A DNA stretch of 34,201 nucleotides from a virus, in the IMG/VR virus record IMGVR_UViG_3300042545_001265, positions 1-34,201 of that record, one strand, 5' to 3'. This document shows, piece after piece, positions 2,093 through 30,386 of this stretch. Each line of letters starts with the position of its first letter. Position 1 is the stretch's first letter. A model generated the notes under the pieces. The model was given only the letters and a program-made list of their open reading frames with translations. It was not told the origin of the DNA and searched no databases. Made by a program: the position numbers and the translations under genes.

Positions 2093-3592
2093 ATGAGAAC
2101 AGTATTAATAGGTTCGGACTTTATGTACGACAAAGATGGTAATTTAAAACCAATTGAAATCAATACAGCACTAGGCTGGGATGGTCCTGAAAAAATAGAA
2201 GCGGATATAGATTGTTTAGATTTAACATCATTATATGCATTTGTTGAAACCAATGGATTTACATCAATACATTATGTTGGAGATTTGGGAATGCTAAACA
2301 AAGCGTTAGAAGCTCAATATAGTGGTAGTTCAATTGTATATGAATTTCACGGAGTAGGAAAAAATTCCATCACAATACCATTTATAGAGGATAATGCCGA
2401 AACATTAATTATCAGAAGTGCATATGATACAACCGCATTAGTAGATGATACCTATTGTAGAGATAAGGTAGAATTTTTAAAACTGATTCAATCCGAATCA
2501 TTTGGTTCTCAATTTGCATATTTAGATGAAGCAAATCAATTAGTATCAAACATAACAATAATACCAGATAATGGTGAGCACCCTAATTTTATTTTAAAAT
2601 CAAGATATCCTGAATATGATAAGGAATTATTTCCTAAGTTTTATAAAGTATCAACTCAATTGGAATTAGATACAATTTTACAAAATGTCACATCAGATTA
2701 CTTCTTAATGGAAAATTATTGTAACACTACTAATAATTTCGAAGGACATATAAAAGTAATAAGAAGTTTAAATATATTGTATCCACCAACATTAGAATCA
2801 ATTCAAATTGGACAATATACTAAATTGAATCAAAATATATTTTTCAACGAAGTAATATATGATAGTGAAACATATGAGGTAGCTTCTGAATATAGAGATA
2901 GTTATGTGACAACCATAAACAATAGATGGTTACCAAAATTATTAGACACTGATTTAGTTGAAATGGCAGACGGTACATTTAAAACCGCAGTAGAATTACA
3001 GGTAAATGATTTAATTAAAACAATTGATATCCCAAATCCAAATGGTACGGATAATTCATCTTATACTACAAATTTTGCTATAACATACGAAACATTAGTA
3101 AGTGGTACAACTTATTCAACAAACAAAATTACTAATTTAAAAAAGATAAATTTATTAACATATATTCATGAATTAACGTTTGATGATAATAGTACTTGGG
3201 AAGATACGGGAGTTTCTTCTTATTTAATTGAAAGAAATAATGAGATTCAATTTGAAAACTTATTTGATGTTCAAATTGGAGATGTTGTTTTATTATTAAA
3301 TACAACAGAAGGACTGGTTGATTTTGTTAGAAAAACAGTTACTTCAAACATTCAAATTAAAAAAGTATTTTCTGGATGGTTCATTTCAGTAGAAAATGCA
3401 CATTTGTTTTTAACTAAAACATCATCCACAAATAATGAATCATTTGTTTCCATTGAACACAATGGTCCAGCCTGTCCACCATACGCTTGCCCGTGTCCAG
3501 GTACTTGTTCATCTTGTCCAAAAGGTGAACCATATTGTGCATGGCCGGGTCCATATTGTAGAGCAAATGGATACTCTGGATTCTGTCTGTAA
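2093..3592 (+). CDS. ATP-grasp-like / degenerate Hint domain protein with Cys-rich C-terminal tail, 499 aa
   Basis: Multi-part protein not recognised as a whole. Residues 9-31 hold YDKDGNLKPIEINTALGWD, which resembles the terminal metal-binding motif of ATP-grasp ligases (E22, N24). Residues 165-240 also look ATP-grasp-like (FILKS; LMENY; HIKVIRSLNILYP), so the order appears permuted. Residues about 282-457 resemble a Hint (intein/hedgehog) domain. LVEMADGTFK and VNDLI at 288-308 match its opening block, IGDVV at 395-399 a middle block, WFISVENAHLFLT at 429-441 the late block, and H456-N457 the closing His-Asn. The usual first Cys is replaced (Lys282 in the alignment) and the TxxH histidine appears to be Ser375. 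After N457 come 42 residues with eight cysteines, nine prolines and four tyrosines. The domain calls are by eye; function is unknown. Confidence 0.6.
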   Translation: MRTVLIGSDFMYDKDGNLKPIEINTALGWDGPEKIEADIDCLDLTSLYAFVETNGFTSIHYVGDLGMLNKALEAQYSGSSIVYEFHGVGKNSITIPFIEDNAETLIIRSAYDTTALVDDTYCRDKVEFLKLIQSESFGSQFAYLDEANQLVSNITIIPDNGEHPNFILKSRYPEYDKELFPKFYKVSTQLELDTILQNVTSDYFLMENYCNTTNNFEGHIKVIRSLNILYPPTLESIQIGQYTKLNQNIFFNEVIYDSETYEVASEYRDSYVTTINNRWLPKLLDTDLVEMADGTFKTAVELQVNDLIKTIDIPNPNGTDNSSYTTNFAITYETLVSGTTYSTNKITNLKKINLLTYIHELTFDDNSTWEDTGVSSYLIERNNEIQFENLFDVQIGDVVLLLNTTEGLVDFVRKTVTSNIQIKKVFSGWFISVENAHLFLTKTSSTNNESFVSIEHNGPACPPYACPCPGTCSSCPKGEPYCAWPGPYCRANGYSGFCL

Positions 3593-3602
3593 TATTTAAA
3601 TA
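3590..3602 (+). promoter_or_regulatory. Possible late promoter element TAATATTTAAATA
   Basis: A variant of the recurring TATATTTAT box that overlaps the stop codon of the Cys-rich protein and lies 21 bases before the ATG at 3623. The match is looser than at 2057, and AT-rich spacers can produce it by chance. Confidence 0.25.
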
Positions 3603-3622
3603 AAAAAATAAAACCAAATAAA

Positions 3623-3712
3623 ATGGCAAATATAATAACAAATACCGAAATTAACACATTAAATACCACCTTAACAACTATTGGTAATTTAATAGTGGCA
3701 GCAAATTCTTAA
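3623..3712 (+). CDS. Possible 29-aa peptide
   Basis: A complete small frame, ATG at 3623 to TAA at 3710, encodes a 29-residue peptide rich in Asn, Thr and Ile (MANIITNTEINTLNTT...). It begins with the MAN start shared by the structural genes at 25114 and 25533, and has an A-rich leader with a loose late-promoter box upstream. It fills most of the space between the Cys-rich protein and the first oxygenase. It has no motif, and could be a small virion peptide or a chance frame. Confidence 0.35.
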   Translation: MANIITNTEINTLNTTLTTIGNLIVAANS

Positions 3713-3730
3713 TCATAAAAAATAAGTTAC

Positions 3731-4261
3731 ATGATACACCTTATAAAAGGTATATTAACAAAGGAAGAGTGTGAATTTTTATCTAAACAATTTGATATCG
3801 AAAAGGTAAATAATTTTTCCTCAGATATTAAGGCGGATACAAATGAATCGTTTGGTTTTAGACCTTCGCATAATTTTAACAAATACTTGGAAATCCTAAA
3901 ACCAAAAATATTTGAATTTGATAGTCAAATAACACATGTTGAAAATGTAAACACATATGTTAGAGAATACTATAATGCTGCATTTTTAGTAAAGCATATA
4001 GATAGAAAAGATATAAGTGTAACAATGTCTATATGTTTAGAATCAACAATAAATACAGAATGGCCACTATTTGCTAAAATAGATGGAAAAGAATATTCGT
4101 TTAATGCAAATGTAGGAGATGGAATATTATTATTTGGTGCAGATAAAAACGTACATTGGAGAAATACTTTATCTTGTAAAGAAAATCAAAGAGTATTACA
4201 ATTTTTTTTACATTGGTCACCTTCTAATTTTTTTATAAAAAATACAAAATCACTAACATAA
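3731..4261 (+). CDS. 2-oxoglutarate/Fe(II)-dependent oxygenase, 176 aa
   Basis: Predicted non-haem iron oxygenase that couples 2-oxoglutarate decarboxylation to hydroxylation of a substrate. The iron ligands are visible as H89-x-D91 (KHIDRKD) and H142 (NVHWRN), with R154 (NQRVLQF) placed to bind 2-oxoglutarate. The core is the size usual for prolyl-4-hydroxylase-like single-domain enzymes. The N-terminal LTKEECEFL is shared with the oxygenases at 4268 and 7522, so the three are probably paralogues. No signal peptide, so cytoplasmic. It opens a seven-gene run of modifying enzymes. The substrate (protein, glycan, base or small molecule) cannot be read from sequence. Very AT-rich. Confidence 0.75.
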   Translation: MIHLIKGILTKEECEFLSKQFDIEKVNNFSSDIKADTNESFGFRPSHNFNKYLEILKPKIFEFDSQITHVENVNTYVREYYNAAFLVKHIDRKDISVTMSICLESTINTEWPLFAKIDGKEYSFNANVGDGILLFGADKNVHWRNTLSCKENQRVLQFFLHWSPSNFFIKNTKSLT

Positions 4262-4267
4262 AAAATT

Positions 4268-4840
4268 ATGTCATTTAAATACATATCAATACCAAATTTA
4301 TTAACAAAAGAAGAATGTGATTTAATACTAAATTTTTCATTAGAAAATTTAACACTAAAACCCGCGGGTATCGTAGGAGAAGATAAACTCATTTTGGATA
4401 AAAGAAAATCTAATGTTGCATTTTATCCATACTATGAAAAATTTCCATTCATACTTGAAAAAATAACTAAATTACTACAAGAAAATATTAGTATAAAAGG
4501 CTTTGATTTAGATTATAAAAATAGTAATTTTCAATTTACAGAATATAAAGTTGGTGAATATTATGGTTGGCACGTAGATTCAGATGGAGAAGATATTAAA
4601 CAAGATAAGAGATACTGCTCTTTGGTTATACAATTAAATGATGGATATGAAGATGGTGATTTAGAATTAAAATTATCCGATGGTTCAATAATGAAAGTAG
4701 AGAAGGGGATAGGCAATACTATTGTTTTTTTATCAAATATTGAACATAGAGTAACTGGAGTTAAAACGGGTGTTAGATATACATTAGTAAATTGGGTTGG
4801 TATAACAGAAAAAAATAATTACAAAAAAACATTATTATAA
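4268..4840 (+). CDS. 2-oxoglutarate/Fe(II)-dependent oxygenase (prolyl hydroxylase-like), 190 aa
   Basis: The most typical of the three oxygenases. The double-stranded beta-helix core carries H102-V-D104 (YGWHVDSD), H160 (IEHRVTG) and R170 (GVRYTLVNW). The strand LNDGYEDGDLEL before the second histidine matches the PKHD / prolyl-4-hydroxylase pattern. The N-terminus LLTKEECDLIL aligns with its neighbours at 3731 and 7522. The gene lies six bases after the previous stop and ends one base before the next start, so it is within an operon. Family role: hydroxylation with O2 and 2-oxoglutarate. Substrate unknown; a prolyl or lysyl residue of a phage protein is one option, a nucleobase another. Confidence 0.85.
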   Translation: MSFKYISIPNLLTKEECDLILNFSLENLTLKPAGIVGEDKLILDKRKSNVAFYPYYEKFPFILEKITKLLQENISIKGFDLDYKNSNFQFTEYKVGEYYGWHVDSDGEDIKQDKRYCSLVIQLNDGYEDGDLELKLSDGSIMKVEKGIGNTIVFLSNIEHRVTGVKTGVRYTLVNWVGITEKNNYKKTLL

Positions 4841-4841
4841 T

Positions 4842-5147
4842 ATGAAAATAGATTTTAAAGAAATTTCAAGAGCGTGGTATAATAAAATTAGACATTCAGC
4901 CGAATTAAAAGATTTAGCAGATAAACGATTTGATATATGTTTACAATGTCCATCTAAACAAGAAATACTAAATATTAAAGGAACTGAGTGGGCTTTGAAA
5001 TGTGGTGAGTGTGGTTGTCCATTAAAAGGAAAAGTTTATAGTCCAAATACACACATTCACCCAAACGGTTCGTGTCCGTTGGGTAAATGGAAAGAAGTGG
5101 AAGATGAATATTTGAAATTCGTTAAAACAACTAAAACAATTATATAA
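4842..5147 (+). CDS. Zinc-ribbon-like small protein, 101 aa
   Basis: Small protein with six cysteines in a metal-binding layout: C33-x2-C36, C54-x2-C57-x-C59 and C78, with histidines H71 and H73 near the last one. The core reads CLQC then CGECGCPL then CPLGKW. This suggests one or two structural zinc sites. No enzyme residues are apparent. It sits inside the modification run (oxygenases before, sulfotransferase after) with gaps of one and two bases, so it may be an adaptor or substrate-recognition subunit, but this is inferred from position only. Confidence 0.65.
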   Translation: MKIDFKEISRAWYNKIRHSAELKDLADKRFDICLQCPSKQEILNIKGTEWALKCGECGCPLKGKVYSPNTHIHPNGSCPLGKWKEVEDEYLKFVKTTKTII

Positions 5148-8119: not shown

Positions 8120-8743
8120 ATGAAGATTATTTACAAAATTCTATATGTTATAGGATTGATTTTATTAGTAACCGCATGTAAAAAAGAAGTTACTAATCCA
8201 ATTCCACCACAACACACAATTACATTTACAATTGATTCAGCATTAAGTTCAGATGGTAAACGAAGTCTACCAAAAGATAATAATGGATTTTATCATTTAG
8301 TATTATCTACAACAAGAACCCAAACTCTTACAAGAATAACAGGTACATTTTTAGTTGATGGTAAACCTAATAAAATACCATCACCCGTTCATGGAAATAT
8401 AGAATGGGTAGGTTCACATTATTGGTTATTAAGAGCAGGTGAATCGGCTACGGCAATTGTTAAAACATATTTCAATCCATTTACAGGTCAATTACAAATT
8501 TCACAATTACCCAATTTAATTTCACAACAAGACCAGGTTATTCCTATTGTAAATGGAACATCCGGATTAGGATATGATGATGGTAATATTAATACTATGG
8601 CTGCACCTGTATACCCGATGCGAGGTGATACACTTACGATTGTAGCTAAAGCAAGATACACAATTGAGATACCCGTAGATAACTTGTTTTCAAAGACTAA
8701 AGTAGATTCAATACAAAAATCTATTAGAATTATTTGTGATTAG
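8120..8743 (+). CDS. Predicted lipoprotein, 207 aa
   Basis: The N-terminus is a clear type II signal peptide: K2, a hydrophobic core (residues 7-17) and the lipobox VTAC with Cys20, so the mature protein should be lipid-anchored in the host envelope. The mature start CKKE has an acidic residue at +4. Residues 33-207 are beta-rich and not recognised as a known family. The gene has its own host-type promoter and stands between operons. Surface lipoproteins of phages with independent promoters often change the host envelope or block superinfection. That role is inferred from position and localisation only. Confidence 0.75.
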   Translation: MKIIYKILYVIGLILLVTACKKEVTNPIPPQHTITFTIDSALSSDGKRSLPKDNNGFYHLVLSTTRTQTLTRITGTFLVDGKPNKIPSPVHGNIEWVGSHYWLLRAGESATAIVKTYFNPFTGQLQISQLPNLISQQDQVIPIVNGTSGLGYDDGNINTMAAPVYPMRGDTLTIVAKARYTIEIPVDNLFSKTKVDSIQKSIRIICD

Positions 8744-13310: not shown

Positions 13311-13721
13311 ATGGCATATTCAGAAAAGGTAATTGACCACTACCAAAACCCCAAAAATGTAGGAACTTTGGACAAATCTAAATCTAATGTAGGTACGGGT
13401 CTAGTAGGTGCACCGGAATGTGGTGATGTGATGAGATTACAAATAGAAGTTAATGATAATATCATAACTGATGCAAAATTTAAAACATTTGGTTGTGGAA
13501 GTGCTATTGCAGCATCTTCATTAGCAACGGAATGGTTGAAAGGTATGACATTAGAAGATGCGGTTAAATTAGATAATATGGAATTGGTAGAGGAATTAAA
13601 CCTGCCACCGGTTAAGATACATTGTTCGGTATTAGCCGAAGATGCTATTAAATCTGCAATAAACGATTATAGACAAAAGCAAGGATTAGAACAACTAATC
13701 TTTGATGAATCACATATATAA
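13311..13721 (+). CDS. iscU: IscU-type Fe-S cluster scaffold, 136 aa
   Basis: Scaffold on which [2Fe-2S] and [4Fe-4S] clusters are built before transfer to target proteins. All ligand residues known from bacterial IscU are present at near-identical positions: C37 and D39 (PECGDV), C62 (FGCGSA), H104 and C105 (KIHCSV). The LPPVK motif recognised by the HscA chaperone is intact at 98-102. Length is close to the usual 128 residues. No IscS cysteine desulfurase is seen in the window, so sulfur would have to come from the host. Directly upstream of a ferredoxin, with an IscA-type carrier 4 kb further on, it points to phage-boosted Fe-S assembly. Confidence 0.9.
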   Translation: MAYSEKVIDHYQNPKNVGTLDKSKSNVGTGLVGAPECGDVMRLQIEVNDNIITDAKFKTFGCGSAIAASSLATEWLKGMTLEDAVKLDNMELVEELNLPPVKIHCSVLAEDAIKSAINDYRQKQGLEQLIFDESHI

Positions 13722-13740
13722 AAAACAAAAAAAACAAATT

Positions 13741-14049
13741 ATGAGTTTTATTATTGGTAAGAGTTGTGTTGATTGTATGGATACTGCATGTGCAAGTGCA
13801 TGTCCGGTAGATTGTATTCACGGACCTATTGATATGGAAGGTTCAGGTGGTGAAATTGAAAGAGATGGTAGAACAGCATTTCCCGGTGGGCAAATGTATA
13901 TCAATCCTGATACTTGTATAAATTGTGGAGCATGTGTACCAGAGTGTCCTGTTTCTGCGATATATGAAGATGAGGATTTGGCTATCAAAGCTGGAGATGA
14001 GGAATCGGTACATAAGAACTATGGTTTCTTTGGTTTAAAGTATAATTAA
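13741..14049 (+). CDS. Dicluster (two [Fe-S]) ferredoxin, 102 aa
   Basis: Electron-transfer protein with two cluster-binding motifs. The first is C9-x2-C12-x4-C17-x3-C21-P-x2-C25, the arrangement of 7Fe/8Fe FdxA-like ferredoxins. The second is the classical C59-x2-C62-x2-C65-x3-C69-P. The frame extends upstream to ATG 13702, but that would overlap the IscU gene; ATG 13741 begins MSFIIGKSC, like related ferredoxins, and has an A-rich leader. It could supply electrons for Fe-S assembly with the upstream IscU or for a reductase. Partners are not visible here. Confidence 0.88.
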   Translation: MSFIIGKSCVDCMDTACASACPVDCIHGPIDMEGSGGEIERDGRTAFPGGQMYINPDTCINCGACVPECPVSAIYEDEDLAIKAGDEESVHKNYGFFGLKYN

Positions 14050-17678: not shown

Positions 17679-18002
17679 ATGGTAACAGTATCAGAAGGTG
17701 CAGCAAAAAAACTAAATTCACTAATTGAAGAAAGTGGATTTAAAACTCCGTTTGTTAGAGTAGCAGTTAAAGGTGGGGGATGTAGTGGTTTATCATATGA
17801 CCTTTCATTTGATACCGAACAACAACCGGCAGATACTCTTGCAGAAAACAATGGAGTAAAAATTCTTATAGATAACAAATCGTTACTATATCTCTTTGGT
17901 ACTGAATTGGATTTTTCCGATGGATTGAATGGTAAAGGGTTTCAGTTTATTAATCCTAATGCATCCCGTACTTGTGGGTGTGGTGAATCATTTGCATTAT
18001 AA
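17679..18002 (+). CDS. iscA: A-type Fe-S carrier (IscA/ErpA/HesB family), 107 aa
   Basis: Carrier that receives clusters from a scaffold and delivers them to target enzymes. The three invariant cysteines are present: C35 in GGGCSGLSY and C99-G-C101 near the C-terminus (RTCGCGESFAL). Length, 107 residues, is typical for IscA-like proteins. It is close downstream of the iron-dependent oxygenase at 17014 and 4 kb from the IscU and ferredoxin genes. It could load clusters made with the phage IscU or serve as an iron carrier. The gene symbol reflects the family; ErpA and IscA cannot be separated here. Confidence 0.9.
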   Translation: MVTVSEGAAKKLNSLIEESGFKTPFVRVAVKGGGCSGLSYDLSFDTEQQPADTLAENNGVKILIDNKSLLYLFGTELDFSDGLNGKGFQFINPNASRTCGCGESFAL

Positions 18003-18945: not shown

Positions 18946-19666
18946 AAAGAAAAAAGATACTAGATACTTTACAGAAATGACAGAAGCAGCTATTATCGCA
19001 TACAACAAATCGGATGATAATAGAGAACGAAATAAATTATACACCGAACACATCCATTATTCATTTTATAAGTTATCCGAAAACGTATTAAACACTTGGG
19101 GATTTACTTATTTTGATGATGATAAAGAAGATATCAAACATGAAGTAGTTTCTTTCTTATTAGAAAAAATACATAAATTTGAAGAAGGTAAAGGTAAAGC
19201 ATTTAGTTACTTTACAATTGCGGCTCGTAACTATCTTATCTTAAATAACAATTCTAACTACAAACGATTTAAAGCAACCTCACAATTAAGTGCAATGCCG
19301 GTTAGTTGGGATTTAGAAAATGATTTCAAACAAACATCACATAACGAAGAATTTAAAACTTTCAATGATAGAATGCTACAATATTGGGATTTAAATCTTA
19401 ATAAAGAATTTTCTAAAAAAAGAGATATACAAATCGCAGATGCTGTTTTAGAATTATTTAGAAGAGCAGAATTTATTGAATCATTTAATAAAAAATCATT
19501 ATACTTATTGGTGAGAGAAATGACGGGTTATAAAACACACTATATAACTAAGGTTGTTTCAAAGATGAAAGAAACCCAAATGAAGTTATACTATCAATTC
19601 TTAGATGAAGGTGATATAACACAAGAATCAAAAGACCCGTTTTGGAAACGAACAATTACAAGATGA
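18938..19666 (+). CDS. T4 gp55-like sigma factor for late transcription, 242 aa
   Basis: Resembles the gp55 family of phage sigma factors that direct host RNA polymerase to late promoters. Recognised by the N-terminal RYFTEMTEAAIIAYN (9-23), RNKLYTEHIHYSFYKLSEN (31-49), the acidic DIKHEVVSFLLEKIHKF (65-81), and GKGKAFSYF (84-92). These correspond to the region-2-like core. The C-terminal half is helical. T4 gp55 is about 185 residues, so this one is longer at the C-terminus. It probably acts on the TATATTTAT-like boxes upstream of the structural genes, which is inference. Its stop overlaps the start of the next gene. Confidence 0.8.
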   Translation: MGRKKKDTRYFTEMTEAAIIAYNKSDDNRERNKLYTEHIHYSFYKLSENVLNTWGFTYFDDDKEDIKHEVVSFLLEKIHKFEEGKGKAFSYFTIAARNYLILNNNSNYKRFKATSQLSAMPVSWDLENDFKQTSHNEEFKTFNDRMLQYWDLNLNKEFSKKRDIQIADAVLELFRRAEFIESFNKKSLYLLVREMTGYKTHYITKVVSKMKETQMKLYYQFLDEGDITQESKDPFWKRTITR

Positions 19667-21357
19667 GAATATTAGGAATATCAGCATTCTACCACGACTC
19701 AGCAGCTGCATTGATTGTAGATGGCAAAGTTGTATCGGCACAAGAAGAAGAACGATTTACAGGTATAAAGCATGACCAACGATTTCCTATCAATTCAATT
19801 AATTGGATTCTAAAACAAAACAAATTAAAGATTAACCAAATAGATAAAATTGTTTGGTACGAAGACCCTAAGAAAAAATACGAAAGATTTAAAGAACAAT
19901 GGTTTAGGTATTTTCCTAAAACAATTGGTTTAACTAAGAAACTTATATTTTGGAGAAAGAATAATAACATTGAAGATATTATTCGTACACAATTAGGATA
20001 TAAAGGTTCAATAGAATATGTAGAACATCACATATCACATTTAGCATATTCATTCTATACATCACCATTTGAAAACGCACATTTATTCTCCGTAGATGGT
20101 GTTGGTGAAAACGAAACAGCAATATTAGGATTAGGCTTAAAAGGTAGATACATACAACCATTAGAGAGAACTTATTTCCCACATTCATTAGGATTATTAT
20201 ATGCAAGTATTACTGCATTCTTAGGATTCAAACCAAATAGTGGTGAATACAAAGTAATGGGATTAGTGGCGTATGGTAATCAAAAAGATTTGTATAGAAA
20301 ACAATTTGAAAAGATTGCTAAACTAAATGGTAATACATTAGAATTAGATATGAAATATTTCTCATATCATTATTCAGAGAAAGGTATGTTTACTTCTAAA
20401 CTAGCAGAACTATTTAATGTAGCACCGAGAACGCCTGAAAGTGAGTTAGAACCTGTTTATATGGATATTGCATTTTCATTACAGGCACATTACGAAAGAT
20501 TGTTTTTCCAAATGTTAAATACTTTTTACAAACATTACCCACAGGACAATTTATGTTTGAGTGGTGGGTGTGCATACAATGGATTAGCAAATGGTAAGAT
20601 AACATTACAAACTCCTTACAAGAACGTATATGTACCGCCGGCACCATCTGATGCAGGTTCTGCTATTGGATGTGCTTTGTATGTATATTATAAATCATCA
20701 AATTATAAAAGAGTGGATAATTCAAATCCATTTTTAGGACCTTCATATGGTGCAGCTGATTTTATATCTGCAATTGCTAATTTAGTTCCACATGATAAAG
20801 TAAAAAGATTTGAAAACTATAATCCATTAATTGAAAAGGTAGCTGGTTTAATTAATGATGGTGCAATTATAGGATGGTTTCAAGATGGTAGTGAATTTGG
20901 ACAAAGAGCATTAGGACATCGTTCTATATTAGCCAATCCAACAATCAAAGATATTAAACCAAAGGTAAATAGAGTAATCAAAAAGAGAGAAGGATTTAGA
21001 CCTTTCGCACCAATGGTTACATCCGATGATGCAAACAAATACTTTGAAATGTTAGGACAAGAAGTTCCTTATATGAATCAAGTATTTAAAGTTAAAGATA
21101 AATTTATTGCGGGATTACCATCTATTACTCACGCCGATGAAACAGCTAGAGTTCAGACAGTTCGTTCTACTTTCAATCCATATATTTTTACACTACTTAA
21201 AAAGTTTGAAAAGTTAAGTGGTTATCCTATCTTACTCAATACCTCATTCAATCTTAGAGGTCAAACAATGGTATTAGATCCTGAAACTGCAATAAAAACC
21301 TTTTACTCATGTGAAATGGATTATTTAGTGTTAGGTAATTATTTAATATCAAAATAA
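19663..21357 (+). CDS. Carbamoyltransferase (NodU/CmcH/TobZ family), 564 aa
   Basis: Uses carbamoyl phosphate and ATP to O-carbamoylate an acceptor. An alternative upstream ATG (19642) exists, but ATG 19663 overlaps the sigma factor stop (ATGA) and begins MRILGISAFYHDSAAAL as in the family. Seen in order: the Kae1-like N-terminal region with HHISH (122-126) and DGVGE (145-149), GEYKVMGLVAYG (194-205), SGGCAYNG (300-307), PSDAGSAIG (328-336), and the C-terminal YrdC-like part with GWFQDGSEFGQRALGHRSI. Length is full for the family. In a phage the acceptor may be a glycan, a nucleotide or DNA; context with sugar-modifying genes favours a glycan, but this is not shown. Confidence 0.88.
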   Translation: MRILGISAFYHDSAAALIVDGKVVSAQEEERFTGIKHDQRFPINSINWILKQNKLKINQIDKIVWYEDPKKKYERFKEQWFRYFPKTIGLTKKLIFWRKNNNIEDIIRTQLGYKGSIEYVEHHISHLAYSFYTSPFENAHLFSVDGVGENETAILGLGLKGRYIQPLERTYFPHSLGLLYASITAFLGFKPNSGEYKVMGLVAYGNQKDLYRKQFEKIAKLNGNTLELDMKYFSYHYSEKGMFTSKLAELFNVAPRTPESELEPVYMDIAFSLQAHYERLFFQMLNTFYKHYPQDNLCLSGGCAYNGLANGKITLQTPYKNVYVPPAPSDAGSAIGCALYVYYKSSNYKRVDNSNPFLGPSYGAADFISAIANLVPHDKVKRFENYNPLIEKVAGLINDGAIIGWFQDGSEFGQRALGHRSILANPTIKDIKPKVNRVIKKREGFRPFAPMVTSDDANKYFEMLGQEVPYMNQVFKVKDKFIAGLPSITHADETARVQTVRSTFNPYIFTLLKKFEKLSGYPILLNTSFNLRGQTMVLDPETAIKTFYSCEMDYLVLGNYLISK

Positions 21358-21420: not shown

Positions 21421-24400
21421 ATGGCAGGATTAACCGTAGACGAATTATCAGCATCCTTTGATGCTAGATTAGATAACAATTCACAAAATTTATTACTATG
21501 GAGTGGTTCATTTCAAACAAAATTGGATGGACTGGGTATAGCAAGTATCAATGCATTTTCAGGAGCAATCAGCACTTCTCTTACTAATTTAAGTTCAAGT
21601 GTAAGTGCAACTTCAACATCTTTTAATGCAAGAATTAATAGTAGTAATTCAAATCAAACAACACTATCGGCATCAGTAAGTGATGATGTAAGTAATTTAA
21701 ATTCCATTATAGATGGTTTAAATGATTTTAGTGCATCTATAACTTCTTCATTTAATTCTTTAAGTGCATCGGTTAGTTCAACTAGTGCATCTTTTAGTAC
21801 AAGAATTAATACGTTAAGATTGGATGCAGGTGGAGTTAGTACTGCAGATTTTAACGCACTTACACAATCATTAAGTGGTGTTATCAGTAGTAGTGCACAA
21901 TTAAATGGTGCAAGTATTACAAATTTAAGTATTACTAATTTAACAACTATTAATGAAACAAGTTCAGTAATATACTCAAGTGGTTCAAACCAATTTGGTG
22001 ATAGTTTAGCTGATAATCATATTTTAAGTGGTAGTGTAAAAATAGTTGGTAGTGGTAGTTTGAATGGTTATACAATATTAACTTCAAATGATACCGCATC
22101 TTTTTTAACTTCACTTAACGGAGCATTAAGTTCTTCGGCACAAGTATTGAATGGTAGTAATGTATTTAGTAGTTCGGCACAATTACCAACTGGGTTAGTT
22201 AGTGCAAGTTCTCAAATATTAGATGGTAGTGGATTATTTAGTAGTTCAGCACAATTACCAGCAGGTTTAGTATCTGGTTCATCTCAATTACCTGTTGGAT
22301 TAGTTAGTGCATCTTCACAAATTTTGAATGGTAGTAACATATTTAGTAGTTCGGCACAATTACCAGCGGGTTTAGTTAGTGCTAGTTCACAAGTATTAGA
22401 TGGTAGTGGATTATTTAGTTCATCTGCACAATTACCAGAAGGTTTAGTAAGTTCTTCTATTTCTACCGGTTCATTTGCAACAACTGGTTCAAACGCATTT
22501 AATGGTACACAAACAATAACTGGTTCATTAATCGTAAGTGGTAGTGGAGATGCATTATTTGTAAGTGGTGGTCAAACAGTTAGACTTGGTAGAGCTTCAT
22601 TATATACAGGAACCGGTGCATATGATGGTAATGTATTTTTACAAGGTTTACAAACTAAATTATATGCAGATAAAGTTGTGTTAGAAGCAGCAAGTGCATT
22701 GGGTGTAGAAGTAATCGGTAATACTAAATTAACCGGTTCGTTGACAGTTAGTTCATCAGCCGCAGTTGATTTAAATGTAATAGGTGCAGTAAATATAACT
22801 GGTTCATTAGAAGTATCTTCATCTAATACTTTAACTTGGTATACTCCAAAACTTGATATATACAATCCAGATCCAAGTGGAGCTTCTTCATTCCAATTAA
22901 ATAAATATAGTACTGCATTAGGTGGGTATTATAACTTTACTATTAGAAACAATGGTGATGCGAGTAATGGTGTGTGGCTTAGTAATGGTAGTCAGCCTAT
23001 TAAAATAATGACAGATGATGTTATTACGTTAAGTGGAACTAATGGTGATGCAGGCAATGTAAAAGTAATCGGTAAATTAAATGTAACCGGTTCAATTGGT
23101 ATAAGTGGTTCAATTATACCAGCAGTTGGTACAGGTACATCAACATCTTCATTCTCATTAGGTTCTGCAACAAATGCATGGAAAGACCTTTGGGTATCAA
23201 ATGGTACTATCAATTTCTTAGGTGGAGATGGTACACCACAAGGTACACTATCATCAACCGCAACAGGACTTCAATTAGGTAGTTCTACAATATCCGGTTC
23301 ATTAATGATAAGTGGTTCATTGACAACAAGTGGTAGTGTTAATATGGGAGAGGGTAATACTATTGGTAATTTTGGAAATCTTATAGTAGGTTCGTATAAT
23401 GTGGCAACAGGTTCTGCCGGTGTTGTATTTGGTAATGGTTCAAAAGCTAATGGAGAGTTTGCAGTATCACTGGGTTCTTCACTAATATCCGATGGACAAT
23501 CATCATTAGCACAAGGTGCAAATAATAAAGCATTAGCAAATTACACACACGCAGAAGGACAAACTACAAGAGCAACGGAATTAGGAGCACACTCAGAAGG
23601 TTCGGCAACTTTAGCAAATGGTCAGTTTGCACACTCAGAAGGAAGATTAACATCTGCATCCGCTGATTACGCACATGCTGAGGGGCAAGATACAAAAGCA
23701 ACTGCTGAAACTTCGCACGCAGAGGGAAGGGGTACAGTTGCATCTGGGATTAATTCTCACGCCGAAGGATATAACACTCTTGCATCTGGATTAAATGCCC
23801 ACGCAGAAGGAAGTAATACAACTGCATCTGCAGCCGTAGCACACTCCGAGGGAATTGATACGAAAGCGGTTGGACAAGGTTCGCACGCAGAAGGTACTGG
23901 TTCTTGGGCAGGTGGTAATTACTCTCACGCAGAAGGATACGGAACAAGAGCTAACGAAGATTATGAATTAGCTATCGGTAAATTTAATGCGGAAACGTAT
24001 AATGGTTCTGTATTTGTAATTGGTAATGGTACAAGTGATGCTAATAGAAGTAATATTGTTAGTGTTAATACTGGTAGTGTTGCATTTGGTGGTTCACTTT
24101 TAATGAGTGGTTCAATTATACCAGCAGTTGGTGTAGGGCAATATACTTCATCATTTAGTTTAGGTTCACCGACAGCAGCTTGGAAAGATATTTATGTATC
24201 AGATGGTACTATTAATTTCTTAGGTTCTACTGGTAATACCATTGGAAGATTAAGTGCAACCGCAGATGGATTGAGTGCACTTTCATTATTACTTGGAACA
24301 TCATCTTTTGGTGGAAATGAAGTTGGACAATTATATATTGGACAAGGTGCAACTAATAATCCAAACAACGTAGCAATTGGTAGAAATGCATTAAATTCAA

Positions 24401-25032
24401 TAGATACTTCTGGTGGTGGTGCAGATGGTATGTTTAACGTTGCAGTAGGTTCAGATGCGTTAACTCAAGTAACTAACGGTCAAGGAAATACAGCAATAGG
24501 GCATGATGCAATGGGTGGTGCCAATGGGTTTTATAATACCTCTATTGGACACTACGCTGGATATGCGGGTGGTGGAAATGGTAGTGTTTATGTAGGTTAT
24601 AACGCCGGAAGACAAATAACTAATACGGGTGCCGGAGGTGGAAACGTTGCATTAGGATATGAAGCGTTAATGAGTAATGGTACTGATGTGTTTTTTGCAG
24701 CTAACGTTGCAATTGGTAACAGGGCCGGATATTATTTAAGTGGTAGTTCACATAATAATATTATATTGGGAGATAGAACAGGTCCACAATCTTATAAAGA
24801 AGAAAATTATAAATTATATGTAGGTGATGGTGCAACTCCATTATTAACAGGTAGTTTAGAAGCGGGTAATCTTTCATTGGGAATAAATGGTGCAACTACA
24901 ATTGCAACTACATTAAATTTAAAACCACAAAATCCATTACCTACTGGAACATTGGGTACTATGGCTGTATCTGGTTCTAGTTTATATTTCCATAACGGAA
25001 CTAGTTGGAAGGCTGTATTATTAGATGCATAA
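21421..25032 (+). CDS. Long tail-fibre protein with YadA-like repeats, 1203 aa
   Basis: Very likely a trimeric tail fibre that contacts the host. The N-terminal 130 residues are Ser/Asn-rich with coiled-coil-like turns (SASVSSTSASF). Residues about 237-345 contain imperfect repeats of SSSAQLPAGLVSASSQ. Residues 710-849 are ten repeats of 14 residues starting HAEG or HSEG, as in the left-handed beta-roll head of YadA-type adhesins. Residues about 983-1120 carry NVAIG/NTAIG-type repeats. A 58-residue module occurs twice (563-620 and 897-954). The C-terminus ends with SGSSLYFHNGTSWKAVLLDA, a typical distal tip. No intramolecular chaperone or enzyme motif is seen. Transcribed from a putative late promoter and ended by a strong terminator. 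Confidence 0.85.
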   Translation: MAGLTVDELSASFDARLDNNSQNLLLWSGSFQTKLDGLGIASINAFSGAISTSLTNLSSSVSATSTSFNARINSSNSNQTTLSASVSDDVSNLNSIIDGLNDFSASITSSFNSLSASVSSTSASFSTRINTLRLDAGGVSTADFNALTQSLSGVISSSAQLNGASITNLSITNLTTINETSSVIYSSGSNQFGDSLADNHILSGSVKIVGSGSLNGYTILTSNDTASFLTSLNGALSSSAQVLNGSNVFSSSAQLPTGLVSASSQILDGSGLFSSSAQLPAGLVSGSSQLPVGLVSASSQILNGSNIFSSSAQLPAGLVSASSQVLDGSGLFSSSAQLPEGLVSSSISTGSFATTGSNAFNGTQTITGSLIVSGSGDALFVSGGQTVRLGRASLYTGTGAYDGNVFLQGLQTKLYADKVVLEAASALGVEVIGNTKLTGSLTVSSSAAVDLNVIGAVNITGSLEVSSSNTLTWYTPKLDIYNPDPSGASSFQLNKYSTALGGYYNFTIRNNGDASNGVWLSNGSQPIKIMTDDVITLSGTNGDAGNVKVIGKLNVTGSIGISGSIIPAVGTGTSTSSFSLGSATNAWKDLWVSNGTINFLGGDGTPQGTLSSTATGLQLGSSTISGSLMISGSLTTSGSVNMGEGNTIGNFGNLIVGSYNVATGSAGVVFGNGSKANGEFAVSLGSSLISDGQSSLAQGANNKALANYTHAEGQTTRATELGAHSEGSATLANGQFAHSEGRLTSASADYAHAEGQDTKATAETSHAEGRGTVASGINSHAEGYNTLASGLNAHAEGSNTTASAAVAHSEGIDTKAVGQGSHAEGTGSWAGGNYSHAEGYGTRANEDYELAIGKFNAETYNGSVFVIGNGTSDANRSNIVSVNTGSVAFGGSLLMSGSIIPAVGVGQYTSSFSLGSPTAAWKDIYVSDGTINFLGSTGNTIGRLSATADGLSALSLLLGTSSFGGNEVGQLYIGQGATNNPNNVAIGRNALNSIDTSGGGADGMFNVAVGSDALTQVTNGQGNTAIGHDAMGGANGFYNTSIGHYAGYAGGGNGSVYVGYNAGRQITNTGAGGGNVALGYEALMSNGTDVFFAANVAIGNRAGYYLSGSSHNNIILGDRTGPQSYKEENYKLYVGDGATPLLTGSLEAGNLSLGINGATTIATTLNLKPQNPLPTGTLGTMAVSGSSLYFHNGTSWKAVLLDA
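22130..22457 (+). repeat. Imperfect in-frame repeats in the tail-fibre gene
   Basis: Several near-copies of a segment encoding SSSAQLPAGLVSASSQ plus an ILNGSN or VLDGSG linker, each roughly 60-90 bases. They form the rod-like part of the fibre and are prone to recombination. Confidence 0.7.
23548..23967 (+). repeat. Ten 42-base repeats encoding HAEG/HSEG units
   Basis: Ten consecutive 14-codon units, each starting CAC or equivalent for H-A/S-E-G followed by a variable position and Thr, with no spacers. The regularity is at the protein level, with third-base changes between copies. This is the adhesin-type beta-roll. Confidence 0.85.
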
Positions 25033-28090: not shown

Positions 28091-28516
28091 TTGGCATTTG
28101 AATTAGAAAAATCGTTTGTAATTGATACACAAGATAAAAGTGTTGGAGTGTCATTGCCTATTGGTGGTGGCAACAATGGCTATTTTGGTGTAAACTATAC
28201 TACGAAAAATCAAATCAAAAGTAATTTAAAAAATTTAATATTAACAGAACCCGGTGAGAGGTTAAGTAATCCTAAATTTGGAACTCCATTAAGACAATTC
28301 ATATTTGAACCATACGAAGATGGTGATTTTGAAAGTAGAATTGAAGATGTTATAACAACAGCAATATCAACGTATTTACCATATGTTAGTATTGAATCTA
28401 TTATATTTGAAAATAACAATGATTCAAAAGATAAACATTTGGTAAATTTAGAAGTAAATTATTCAATAAACTTTTCAGCAATACCCACAACTGATACATT
28501 AACAATTTCATTATAA
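28091..28516 (+). CDS. Baseplate wedge protein, gp25-like, 141 aa (TTG start)
   Basis: Sheath-initiator/wedge protein of the gp25-W family, which nucleates the tail sheath at the baseplate. The family core is seen in LKNLILTEPGERLSNPKFGTP (about 47-67), then the RQFIFEP segment. The start is TTG: there is no other methionine codon in the frame, and AAGGGG lies just upstream. It ends one base before the gp6-like gene, the usual gene order for contractile tails. Together these firmly indicate a myovirus. Confidence 0.85.
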   Translation: MAFELEKSFVIDTQDKSVGVSLPIGGGNNGYFGVNYTTKNQIKSNLKNLILTEPGERLSNPKFGTPLRQFIFEPYEDGDFESRIEDVITTAISTYLPYVSIESIIFENNNDSKDKHLVNLEVNYSINFSAIPTTDTLTISL

Positions 28517-28517
28517 A

Positions 28518-30386
28518 ATGGCACTTAATCCAATAGATAAAAGCTGGTCTACAAACAAAAAAGACGTTAAATATGTGAATAGAGATTTCACATCTTTAAA
28601 GCAAGCATTGGTTGAATTTACTAAAACATATTTTCCAAATACCAATTCCGATTTTAGTGATGCATCTCCTGGTATGATGTTTATGGAACAGGCCGCATAT
28701 GTGGGTGATGTTCTTTCATATTATACCGATGCTCAATTAAAAGAATCATTTATTAACGTAGCAAGTAATTATTCAAATATTCTTATACACGCTCAAAACT
28801 TTGGCTATGTTCCTAAAATAAGTAGACCTGCGGTAACAACATTGACGGTATATCAAACCGTTCCATCTATATTAAATGCAACAGGAACAGGTACATCTGA
28901 GCCTGATTTTAATTATTGTGTAAAAATAAAAGAAGGAATGGAAGTTAAATCAGAATCCAATTCTAATATAATATTTACTACATTAGATATGGTAGATTTT
29001 ACCAATCCTATCAATAGAACGGTATCGGTATTAACTCAAGCTAACGGAGCACCACAATTGTATTTATTAACAAAAACAGTTCAGGCTATTAGTGCAGCGG
29101 TAGTAACGATAACAAATGATTTAGGAAGTTCATTTAAACCAAATCCTACAATTAATATTACAGATTCTAATTTTATAAAAATTATATCAGTAGTAGATGA
29201 ATCAAATAATTCATATTACGAAGTTCCATATTTGGCACAAGAAATGATTTATATAAAAGAAGCGAATGCTTCGATATATGACCAAACATTGGCATCGGGT
29301 AGTGTTGATACACCGTATAATTTAAAATTAGTTAAAACAAATAAAAGGTTTACAACTAGAATAACAGATGTAGATAATGTTCAATTAAGATTCGGCGCGG
29401 CAAGTGAAACTACTGCAGATGAAATGATTGTACCAAATACTAAAAACGTAGGATTAGGATTAAATAATTCAATTAGTAGATTAGAACAATCATTTGACCC
29501 TTCTAATTTTTTAAAAACATCTACATATGGAATTGCACCTACCGGTGAAGTTACCATTAAATATTTAGCGGGTGGTGGTATTAGTTCAAATGTTGTTTCA
29601 AATGATTTAAGAAAAATTGTTTCAATGGAATTTGATGAAGATTTATTAACATTTAATTCAACTACATCACCATTATATCAATCATCCAAAGCATCAATTG
29701 CAGTGGATAATTTAATACCTGCTACTGGTGGTAGAGGTATTGAAACATTAGATGAAATAAGAGAAAATTCAATTGCAAACTACGCATCGCAAAATAGAGC
29801 AGTAACTAAACAAGATTACGAAATTAGAGCATTATCAATGGATGCTTCATTTGGTAGTATTGCCAAAGTATATGTGGAGCAGGATTCCCAAAATAACCCA
29901 TTTGCAATCAATATGTACACACTTGGATATAATTCTAATGGAAACCTTACCCAACTAAATACAGCAACTAAAAACAACCTTAAAACCTATTTAAATGAGT
30001 ATAGGTTAATTACAGATGCTATAAATTTATTAGATGGTTATATTATTAACATTGGGGTAAATTTTGAAATAACAACATTTTCAAATTATAATAAAAGAGA
30101 AGTTGTATTAAATTGTATTCAATCAATAACAAACTATTTTAATATCTACAATAGAAAAATTAATCAACCAATTAATTTGGGTGAGTTAGAATTAGAATTA
30201 GCAAATGTAAATGGTGTAGCAACAGTTCCAAAATTAGAAATTTACAATATATGTGATGATACACATTCTCACAATGAATATGATATTAAAGCAGCAACAA
30301 AGAATAAAATTGTTTATCCATCATTAGACCCTTCTATTTTTGAATTGAAGTTTCCTAATACTGATATTAAAGGGAGAGCATTATAA
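28518..30386 (+). CDS. Baseplate wedge protein, gp6-like, 622 aa
   Basis: Large wedge subunit, equivalent in role to T4 gp6 or phage P2 gpJ, which links wedges into the baseplate ring. Recognised by the N-terminal VNRDFTSLKQALVEFTKTYF and by the adjacent DASPGMMFMEQAAYVGDVL and YYTDAQLKESFI helices. Further on, ENSIANYASQNRAVTKQDYE (about 416-435) is the usual C-terminal family block. Length close to T4 gp6 (660). It follows gp25 and overlaps the next gene by one base. Confidence 0.88.
   Translation: MALNPIDKSWSTNKKDVKYVNRDFTSLKQALVEFTKTYFPNTNSDFSDASPGMMFMEQAAYVGDVLSYYTDAQLKESFINVASNYSNILIHAQNFGYVPKISRPAVTTLTVYQTVPSILNATGTGTSEPDFNYCVKIKEGMEVKSESNSNIIFTTLDMVDFTNPINRTVSVLTQANGAPQLYLLTKTVQAISAAVVTITNDLGSSFKPNPTINITDSNFIKIISVVDESNNSYYEVPYLAQEMIYIKEANASIYDQTLASGSVDTPYNLKLVKTNKRFTTRITDVDNVQLRFGAASETTADEMIVPNTKNVGLGLNNSISRLEQSFDPSNFLKTSTYGIAPTGEVTIKYLAGGGISSNVVSNDLRKIVSMEFDEDLLTFNSTTSPLYQSSKASIAVDNLIPATGGRGIETLDEIRENSIANYASQNRAVTKQDYEIRALSMDASFGSIAKVYVEQDSQNNPFAINMYTLGYNSNGNLTQLNTATKNNLKTYLNEYRLITDAINLLDGYIINIGVNFEITTFSNYNKREVVLNCIQSITNYFNIYNRKINQPINLGELELELANVNGVATVPKLEIYNICDDTHSHNEYDIKAATKNKIVYPSLDPSIFELKFPNTDIKGRAL

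Follow-up and report, generated by a model that had tools for sequence, protein, structure and literature searches.

Background

Several described systems come close to the one considered here. Bacterial intein-like (BIL) domains have the Hint fold and a terminal His-Asn (HN) pair and need no nucleophile at the following (+1) position, with cleavage expected over splicing. In bacterial polymorphic toxins, the variable C-terminus is preceded by a HINT autopeptidase that is believed to set it free (PMC3482391). Graspetides and other ribosomally synthesized and post-translationally modified peptides matured by ATP-grasp enzymes pair an ATP-grasp ligase with a ribosomal peptide. Here we describe a gene from a viral sequence of 34,201 nucleotides (IMG/VR record IMGVR_UViG_3300042545_001265, positions 1 to 34,201; "the window" denotes this whole stretch), whose product, called the carrier below, combines an ATP-grasp-like domain, a Hint domain and a hypervariable Cys-rich tail in one chain. 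We propose that it is probably a carrier for a small disulfide-rich peptide, in which a Hint domain limited to the C-terminal reaction frees the variable tail through asparagine cyclisation.

The carrier shares the Hint fold, the closing His-Asn and the freedom at +1 with BIL domains, and differs from them in that its Hint domain has lost both Cys1 and the block-B histidine, leaving only the C-terminal cut to be expected, and in being a phage protein with an ATP-grasp partner. Like the polymorphic toxins it has a constant N-terminal part, a Hint domain near its end and a variable module at the C-terminus, which that domain is predicted to release. Unlike them it has no evident secretion signal, repeat stalk or known toxin domain, no immunity gene was identified, and its module is a short Cys-rich peptide found in phages. 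As in graspetides, a predicted ATP-grasp ligase accompanies a ribosomal peptide; here the two form one chain by way of the Hint domain, the tails are rich in Cys and the ATP-grasp domain is of a different type. The literature on phage Hint domains yielded only ordinary inteins, in terminase or reductase.

The Hint domain and its altered active site

Sequence searches of Pfam, PHROGs and the Protein Data Bank (PDB) assigned the protein to no family, and we place it by fold and profile comparison, which succeeded where those searches gave nothing. AlphaFold2, supplied with 29 sequences, gave a model with a predicted local distance difference test score (pLDDT) of 73 overall, mostly 77-92 for residues 281-440. 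All top 50 Foldseek matches of residues 278-459 in the PDB were intein, BIL or hedgehog structures, the best being the BUBL BIL2 domain of Tetrahymena (6y75, E 3.7e-7; also 6tmm). VIA-align superposed the model on NpuDnaB with Z 15.3 over 139 residues at 2.5 Å and on many other chains with Z 12-15, and many of these alignments laid residue 282 on intein residue 1 and residue 457 on the intein's last residue. The first-pass annotation, which had recognised Hint-like blocks by reading the sequence, had set the Hint horseshoe beforehand as a check, and the predicted structure has that shape. Independently of any model, a profile of 44 Hint domains from the family matched a canonical phage Hint domain (locus L146; E 6.6e-9). 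Model and profile together place carrier residues 282-457 in the Hint superfamily.

The canonical domain at L146 (Cys, TYEH, HN-FSEKT) ends a 1358-residue tail-like protein of another phage (L146:4380-8456), follows a repeat rich in Thr, Ile, Asn and Asp, and has a 2-oxoglutarate (2OG) oxygenase-like gene directly downstream; it is possibly the intact counterpart of the carrier Hint. A second, weak match to the profile, in a 209-kb phage (G005), was dropped, as the stretch read there showed no Hint blocks.

The active site has been altered in a fixed manner: Cys1 has become Lys, the block-B histidine Ser, so that the block reads T-x-x-S (Ser375) where TxxH is expected, and the block-F Asp almost any residue, while the C-terminal His-Asn is retained. 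The annotation had already taken Lys282 for a replaced first catalytic residue and the TxxH histidine for apparently lost, and the alignment of 52 full-length proteins agrees, with P281, K282, D371, H456 and N457 all invariant. The combination that marks a class 1 intein (Cys or Ser at residue 1, Cys, Ser or Thr at +1, splicing into a host protein) is absent. Of the BIL hallmarks, the C-terminal His-Asn and the independence of a +1 nucleophile are present; Cys1 and the block-B TxxH are missing, and for that reason we do not class the domain as BIL. It may act like the C-terminal half-reaction of one and, judged on its residues, the protein is best called a Hint-domain carrier with predicted C-terminal cutting only, a new architecture.

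Conservation up to the predicted cut

Relatives were collected by three scans of IMG/VR, with the whole protein (44 loci), the alignment (73 loci) and the N-terminal domain alone (78 loci), all with patterns free of HN; every family sequence is metagenomic. Whether homologues keep the His-Asn pair and a Cys-rich tail had been posed in advance as a check, and both are present in 71 of the 71 relatives from the N-domain scan that could be read to the C-terminus. This retention does not stem from the search, whose patterns came from the N-terminal domain. Identity to the window protein falls to ~41%, and the architecture is fixed throughout.

Conservation stops abruptly after Asn457. Mean entropy in the 52-protein alignment is 0.62 at residues 450-457 and 2.44 at residues 458-462, so that the conserved region ends at the predicted cut, and the residue right after Asn457 reaches 3.3 bits (V, G, A, Y, F and others; Ser or Thr in 5 of 53 and Cys in none). 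A +1 position open to nearly every residue but never filled by Cys, in the manner of BIL domains, argues against splicing, which had been judged unlikely from the start.

Ratios of nonsynonymous to synonymous polymorphism (pN/pS) in 18 close pairs were 0.10-0.33 for the N-terminal domain; those of the Hint domain lay mostly at 0.09-0.32, with one pair at 0.45, and those of the tail, at 0.15-0.9, usually exceeded the body value. The reading frame is intact in every relative. By these measures the Hint domain is kept by strong purifying selection and is not decaying.

The cysteine-rich tail

In the window, translation and residue count bear out the earlier description of a 499-residue open reading frame (ORF) with the Lys282 codon at 2936 and, after H456-N457, a 42-residue tail with eight Cys, nine Pro and four Tyr. 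Across the family the tail is 31-62 residues long and is hypervariable apart from the parity of its Cys and a core lysine. The 55 distinct tails carry six (18 tails), eight (35) or ten (2) Cys and never an odd number; they share ancestry, and 55 is not a number of independent trials, and parsimony on the body tree requires at least six changes of Cys number, with even values only at the tips. The pattern C-x(1,2)-K-x(2,6)-C occurs in 55 of 55 tails, against a mean of 18 and a maximum of 31 when the non-Cys residues were shuffled 2000 times; three tails have it at the first Cys, where it is possibly due to chance. Of the 52 aligned proteins, 49 have Lys at column 477. These regularities point to the tails being disulfide-rich peptides with one needed lysine.

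Ten tails searched against Pfam gave no match above the curated cut-offs, and weak matches below them for one tail only. One 211-kb contig (G004) holds two carrier copies 38 kb apart (L050 and L062) with very different tails, of eight and six Cys. A diversity-generating retroelement is an unlikely source of the tail variation, because neither the window nor locus L077, which overlaps it, contains a template copy of the tail, and the tails differ in length and by indels; inspection of the window ORFs by eye recognised no reverse transcriptase.

The N-terminal ATP-grasp domain and the companion gene

ATP-grasp ligases of the glutathione-synthetase/YgiC type couple a carboxylate to an amine. Modelled alone, residues 1-280 matched members of this group over nearly their full length, namely yeast and human glutathione synthetase, Escherichia coli YgiC and YjfC (Z 8.1) and glutathionylspermidine synthetase (Z ~7.9). 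The top match, 1m0w_B, covered 228 residues at 5.2 Å, and the leading matches were nearly all of the glutathione-synthetase or glutathionylspermidine-synthetase type. On the predicted structure, residues 1-280 are a circularly permuted ATP-grasp ligase fold of the glutathione-synthetase/YgiC type.

The first 25 residues can be aligned with the YgiC motif, D9, E22 and N24 corresponding to D102, E115 and N117, in a short and weak hhalign match (E 0.12). This putative Mg/acyl-phosphate motif, D9..E22-x-N24, is invariant in the family, and the position of the Arg of such enzymes is an invariant Gly7; in Cp1B, which has the same fold, R139, D141, E163 and N165 are all needed (PMC12568646). The carrier resembles glutathione synthetase, glutathionylspermidine synthetase and the YgiC-YjfC peptide-spermidine ligases in its predicted fold over residues 1-278 and, tentatively, in its D..E-x-N motif, and differs from them in the small size of the domain (~280 residues), the replaced catalytic Arg and the lack of a Pfam GSP_synth match (PF03738; none in seven phage records at E <= 1, nor among 44 family members). 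A search of BFVD for viral relatives of the domain returned none at E <= 0.001.

A Zn-ribbon-like companion family of ~100 residues is present at 73 of 73 carrier loci. In all 69 cases measured it lies on the same strand and less than 5 kb from the carrier, often as the next gene at a distance of ~100 nt; near relatives have one or two 2OG-oxygenase-like genes in between. The first-pass annotation had missed this companion, the ATP-grasp domain, the evenness of the Cys counts and the lysine at a fixed place in the tail.

Proposed mechanism and alternatives

Taken most simply, the pattern of retained and missing Hint residues points to a domain that performs the last cut only. Without the residues of the N-terminal reactions and with the His-Asn pair, it would be capable of one reaction, in which Asn457 cyclises and cuts the peptide bond after itself, freeing a C-terminal peptide of 31-62 residues and leaving the ATP-grasp and Hint domains joined. 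Asn cyclisation is known to cut the C-terminal junction even when the preceding steps of splicing are missing (PMC3922620). The Ssp DnaB C1A intein, which lacks Cys1 and retains His-Asn, cuts efficiently at its C-terminal junction in vivo with the penultimate His (PMC4339811), and for this reason we regard release by the carrier as a well-founded inference. In the Pho RadA intein, Asp F:4 acts as a brake on Asn cyclisation (PMC4031507), so its loss from the carrier Hint fits an uncoupled cut. The freed tail would probably fold with three to five disulfides outside the reducing cytoplasm, for example at lysis, and because disulfides would not be expected to last within the cytoplasm, its site of action is probably outside as well. 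With no signal peptide evident in the chain, lysis would be the plain route of release. Because the tail changes so fast, the free peptide would most likely be a secreted-type effector or recognition peptide.

The analysis shows the gene structure, the predicted folds, the constancy of HN, the Cys parity, the variability of the tail, the selection on the domains and the link to the companion gene; cleavage, disulfide formation, peptide release and a functional product are inferred. Several points weigh against this account. The tail is modelled poorly (pLDDT about 45-60), and a disulfide fold is suggested by Cys parity alone. Eleven of 52 relatives have another residue in place of the block-F His, to which activation of the Asn is ascribed, and known inteins cut their C-terminal junction more slowly once residue 1 is replaced (PMC4339811). 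The absence of a signal peptide, judged by eye, leaves lysis as the only evident exit. Weighing both sides, we still favour a carrier that releases its tail, with moderate confidence.

The His-Asn pair also bears on the idea of a rigid holder: a Hint domain devoid of catalytic activity would display the Cys-rich tail, no cutting would take place and the whole protein would have a binding or structural role. The joint loss of Cys1, the block-B His and the block-F Asp speaks for such a holder, and conservation of the whole domain is equally expected from a structural role. A holder has no need, however, for an exact His-Asn at the last two positions of the fold in every relative, just where conservation stops, and no relative has the tail without HN. 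We consider a dead holder somewhat unlikely.

The release model may also be extended to a one-gene peptide factory, in which the ATP-grasp domain modifies its own peptide, perhaps at the fixed tail lysine or the carboxyl end, the Hint domain frees it and the Zn-ribbon companion helps; the lineage-specific peptide, shed at lysis, would then act on neighbouring cells or competing phages. This fuller scheme is speculative and, taken as a whole, unlikely.

Tetrahymena BIL2, among the closest folds, has Cys1 and a catalytic His69 and is reported to make isopeptide bonds (PMC8616854), which suggests conjugation or cross-linking as another function: Lys282 with Glu455 and Asn457 might form an isopeptide link, or a flanking peptide might be transferred to an amine, as BIL2 does with ubiquitin-like domains. 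Lys282 (52/52), Glu455 (51/52) and the conserved tail lysine would suit such a role. BIL2 relies on Cys1, however, which the carrier Hint lacks, and splicing would transfer the N-terminal flank, in the carrier the ATP-grasp domain; we think conjugation rather improbable.

The tail could instead be a small zinc- or iron-binding module and no disulfide-rich extracellular peptide, an idea compatible with cleavage or its absence. Metal sites would likewise be consistent with the even number of Cys and the frequent CxxC spacings (54), and the companion gene resembles a Zn ribbon. Against this, His is nearly absent from the tails (6 of 2245 residues, 0.27% versus 1.5% in the body), and the Cys vary freely in position and spacing, pairs having been both added and lost, with no two CxxC knuckles kept in place, which makes a metal module distinctly improbable. 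The label "degenerate" given to the Hint domain in the first-pass annotation holds for the three usual catalytic residues that are gone, but the decay it implies, a functionless intein remnant, is scarcely credible given frames intact in all relatives, Hint pN/pS values (mostly 0.1-0.3) that match the low level of the remaining body, and an architecture fixed to ~41% identity.

Genomic setting and distribution

The carrier gene and associated features are listed in Table 1. Genes for gp25-like and gp6-like baseplate wedge proteins at 28091-30386 mark the surroundings as those of a contractile-tail phage. Carriers occur in fifteen large contigs of 88-336 kb, one of which holds two copies and four of which encode a T4-type prohead protease. 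No family member turned up among cultured phages: at tblastn sensitivity, three carrier members found no relative among the 50,697 phage records of INPHARED, and two companion-family members gave no match there. The 84,980 prokaryote genomes scanned at pattern sensitivity likewise yielded no carrier relative.

Table 1. Features of the carrier gene and its surroundings (window positions)
Feature	Position	Strand	Evidence
Carrier gene: ATP-grasp-like + Hint + hypervariable Cys-rich tail, 499 residues	2093-3592	+	
Residues 1-280, circularly permuted ATP-grasp domain (predicted), glutathione-synthetase / YgiC-YjfC type	2093-2932	+	AlphaFold2 pLDDT 90.3; 1m0w Z 9.1, 2hgs 8.9, 7uk8 8.9; YgiC motif register
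Residues 282-457, Hint (intein/BIL-type) domain	2936-3463	+	Predicted fold, alignment, profile match
Lys282 at intein Cys1 position, Lys in 52/52	2936-2938	+	Alignment and structural superposition
Ser375 at block-B histidine position, Ser in 50/52, Val in 2	3215-3217	+	Alignment
His437, block-F histidine, 41/52; others Arg, Met, Lys	3401-3403	+	Alignment
His456-Asn457, predicted cleavage residues, invariant	3458-3463	+	Alignment and relatives
42-residue peptide, predicted released, 8 Cys, hypervariable	3464-3589	+	
Lys477 (C-x-K), sole well-conserved non-Cys tail residue	3521-3523	+	
Two 2OG-Fe(II)-oxygenase-like genes between carrier and companion; nearer relatives only, hence non-core	3731-4840	+	
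Companion gene, ~100-residue Zn-ribbon-like protein, CxxC..CxxCxC..C, relative of phrog_13558	4842-5147	+	

An intergenic gap of ~100 nt 3' of the carrier (3593-3730 in the window) recurs across distant relatives; Rfam gave no match within the window, this gap included. Further along, a lipoprotein-like gene (8120-8743), with a signal peptide containing LVTAC, is conserved in several relatives. Genes resembling iron-sulfur assembly factors by eye (IscU/NifU-like, 13311-13721; ferredoxin-like, 13702-14049; IscA-like, 17679-18002) occur near the 2OG-oxygenases, which need iron. A carbamoyltransferase gene (19642-21357; Pfam PF02543/PF16861) sits among genes that by eye are sulfotransferase-like and glycosyltransferase-like, a group with the look of glycan or virion decoration, and a tail-fibre-like protein of 1203 residues (21421-25032) contains SSSAQLPxGLVS repeats as well as an extended array of the HAEG type.

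Conclusions

If the proposed mechanism is correct, phages would own a carrier that processes itself and, with no need of a protease, sets free a stable peptide particular to each lineage, and a peptide effector, signal or recognition device would be added to phage biology. The carrier would also provide a natural Hint domain stripped to its C-terminal cut, of the kind that biotechnologists build by hand in C1A inteins. Its hypervariable tails, with their even numbers of Cys, represent more than 50 natural candidate disulfide-rich scaffolds.
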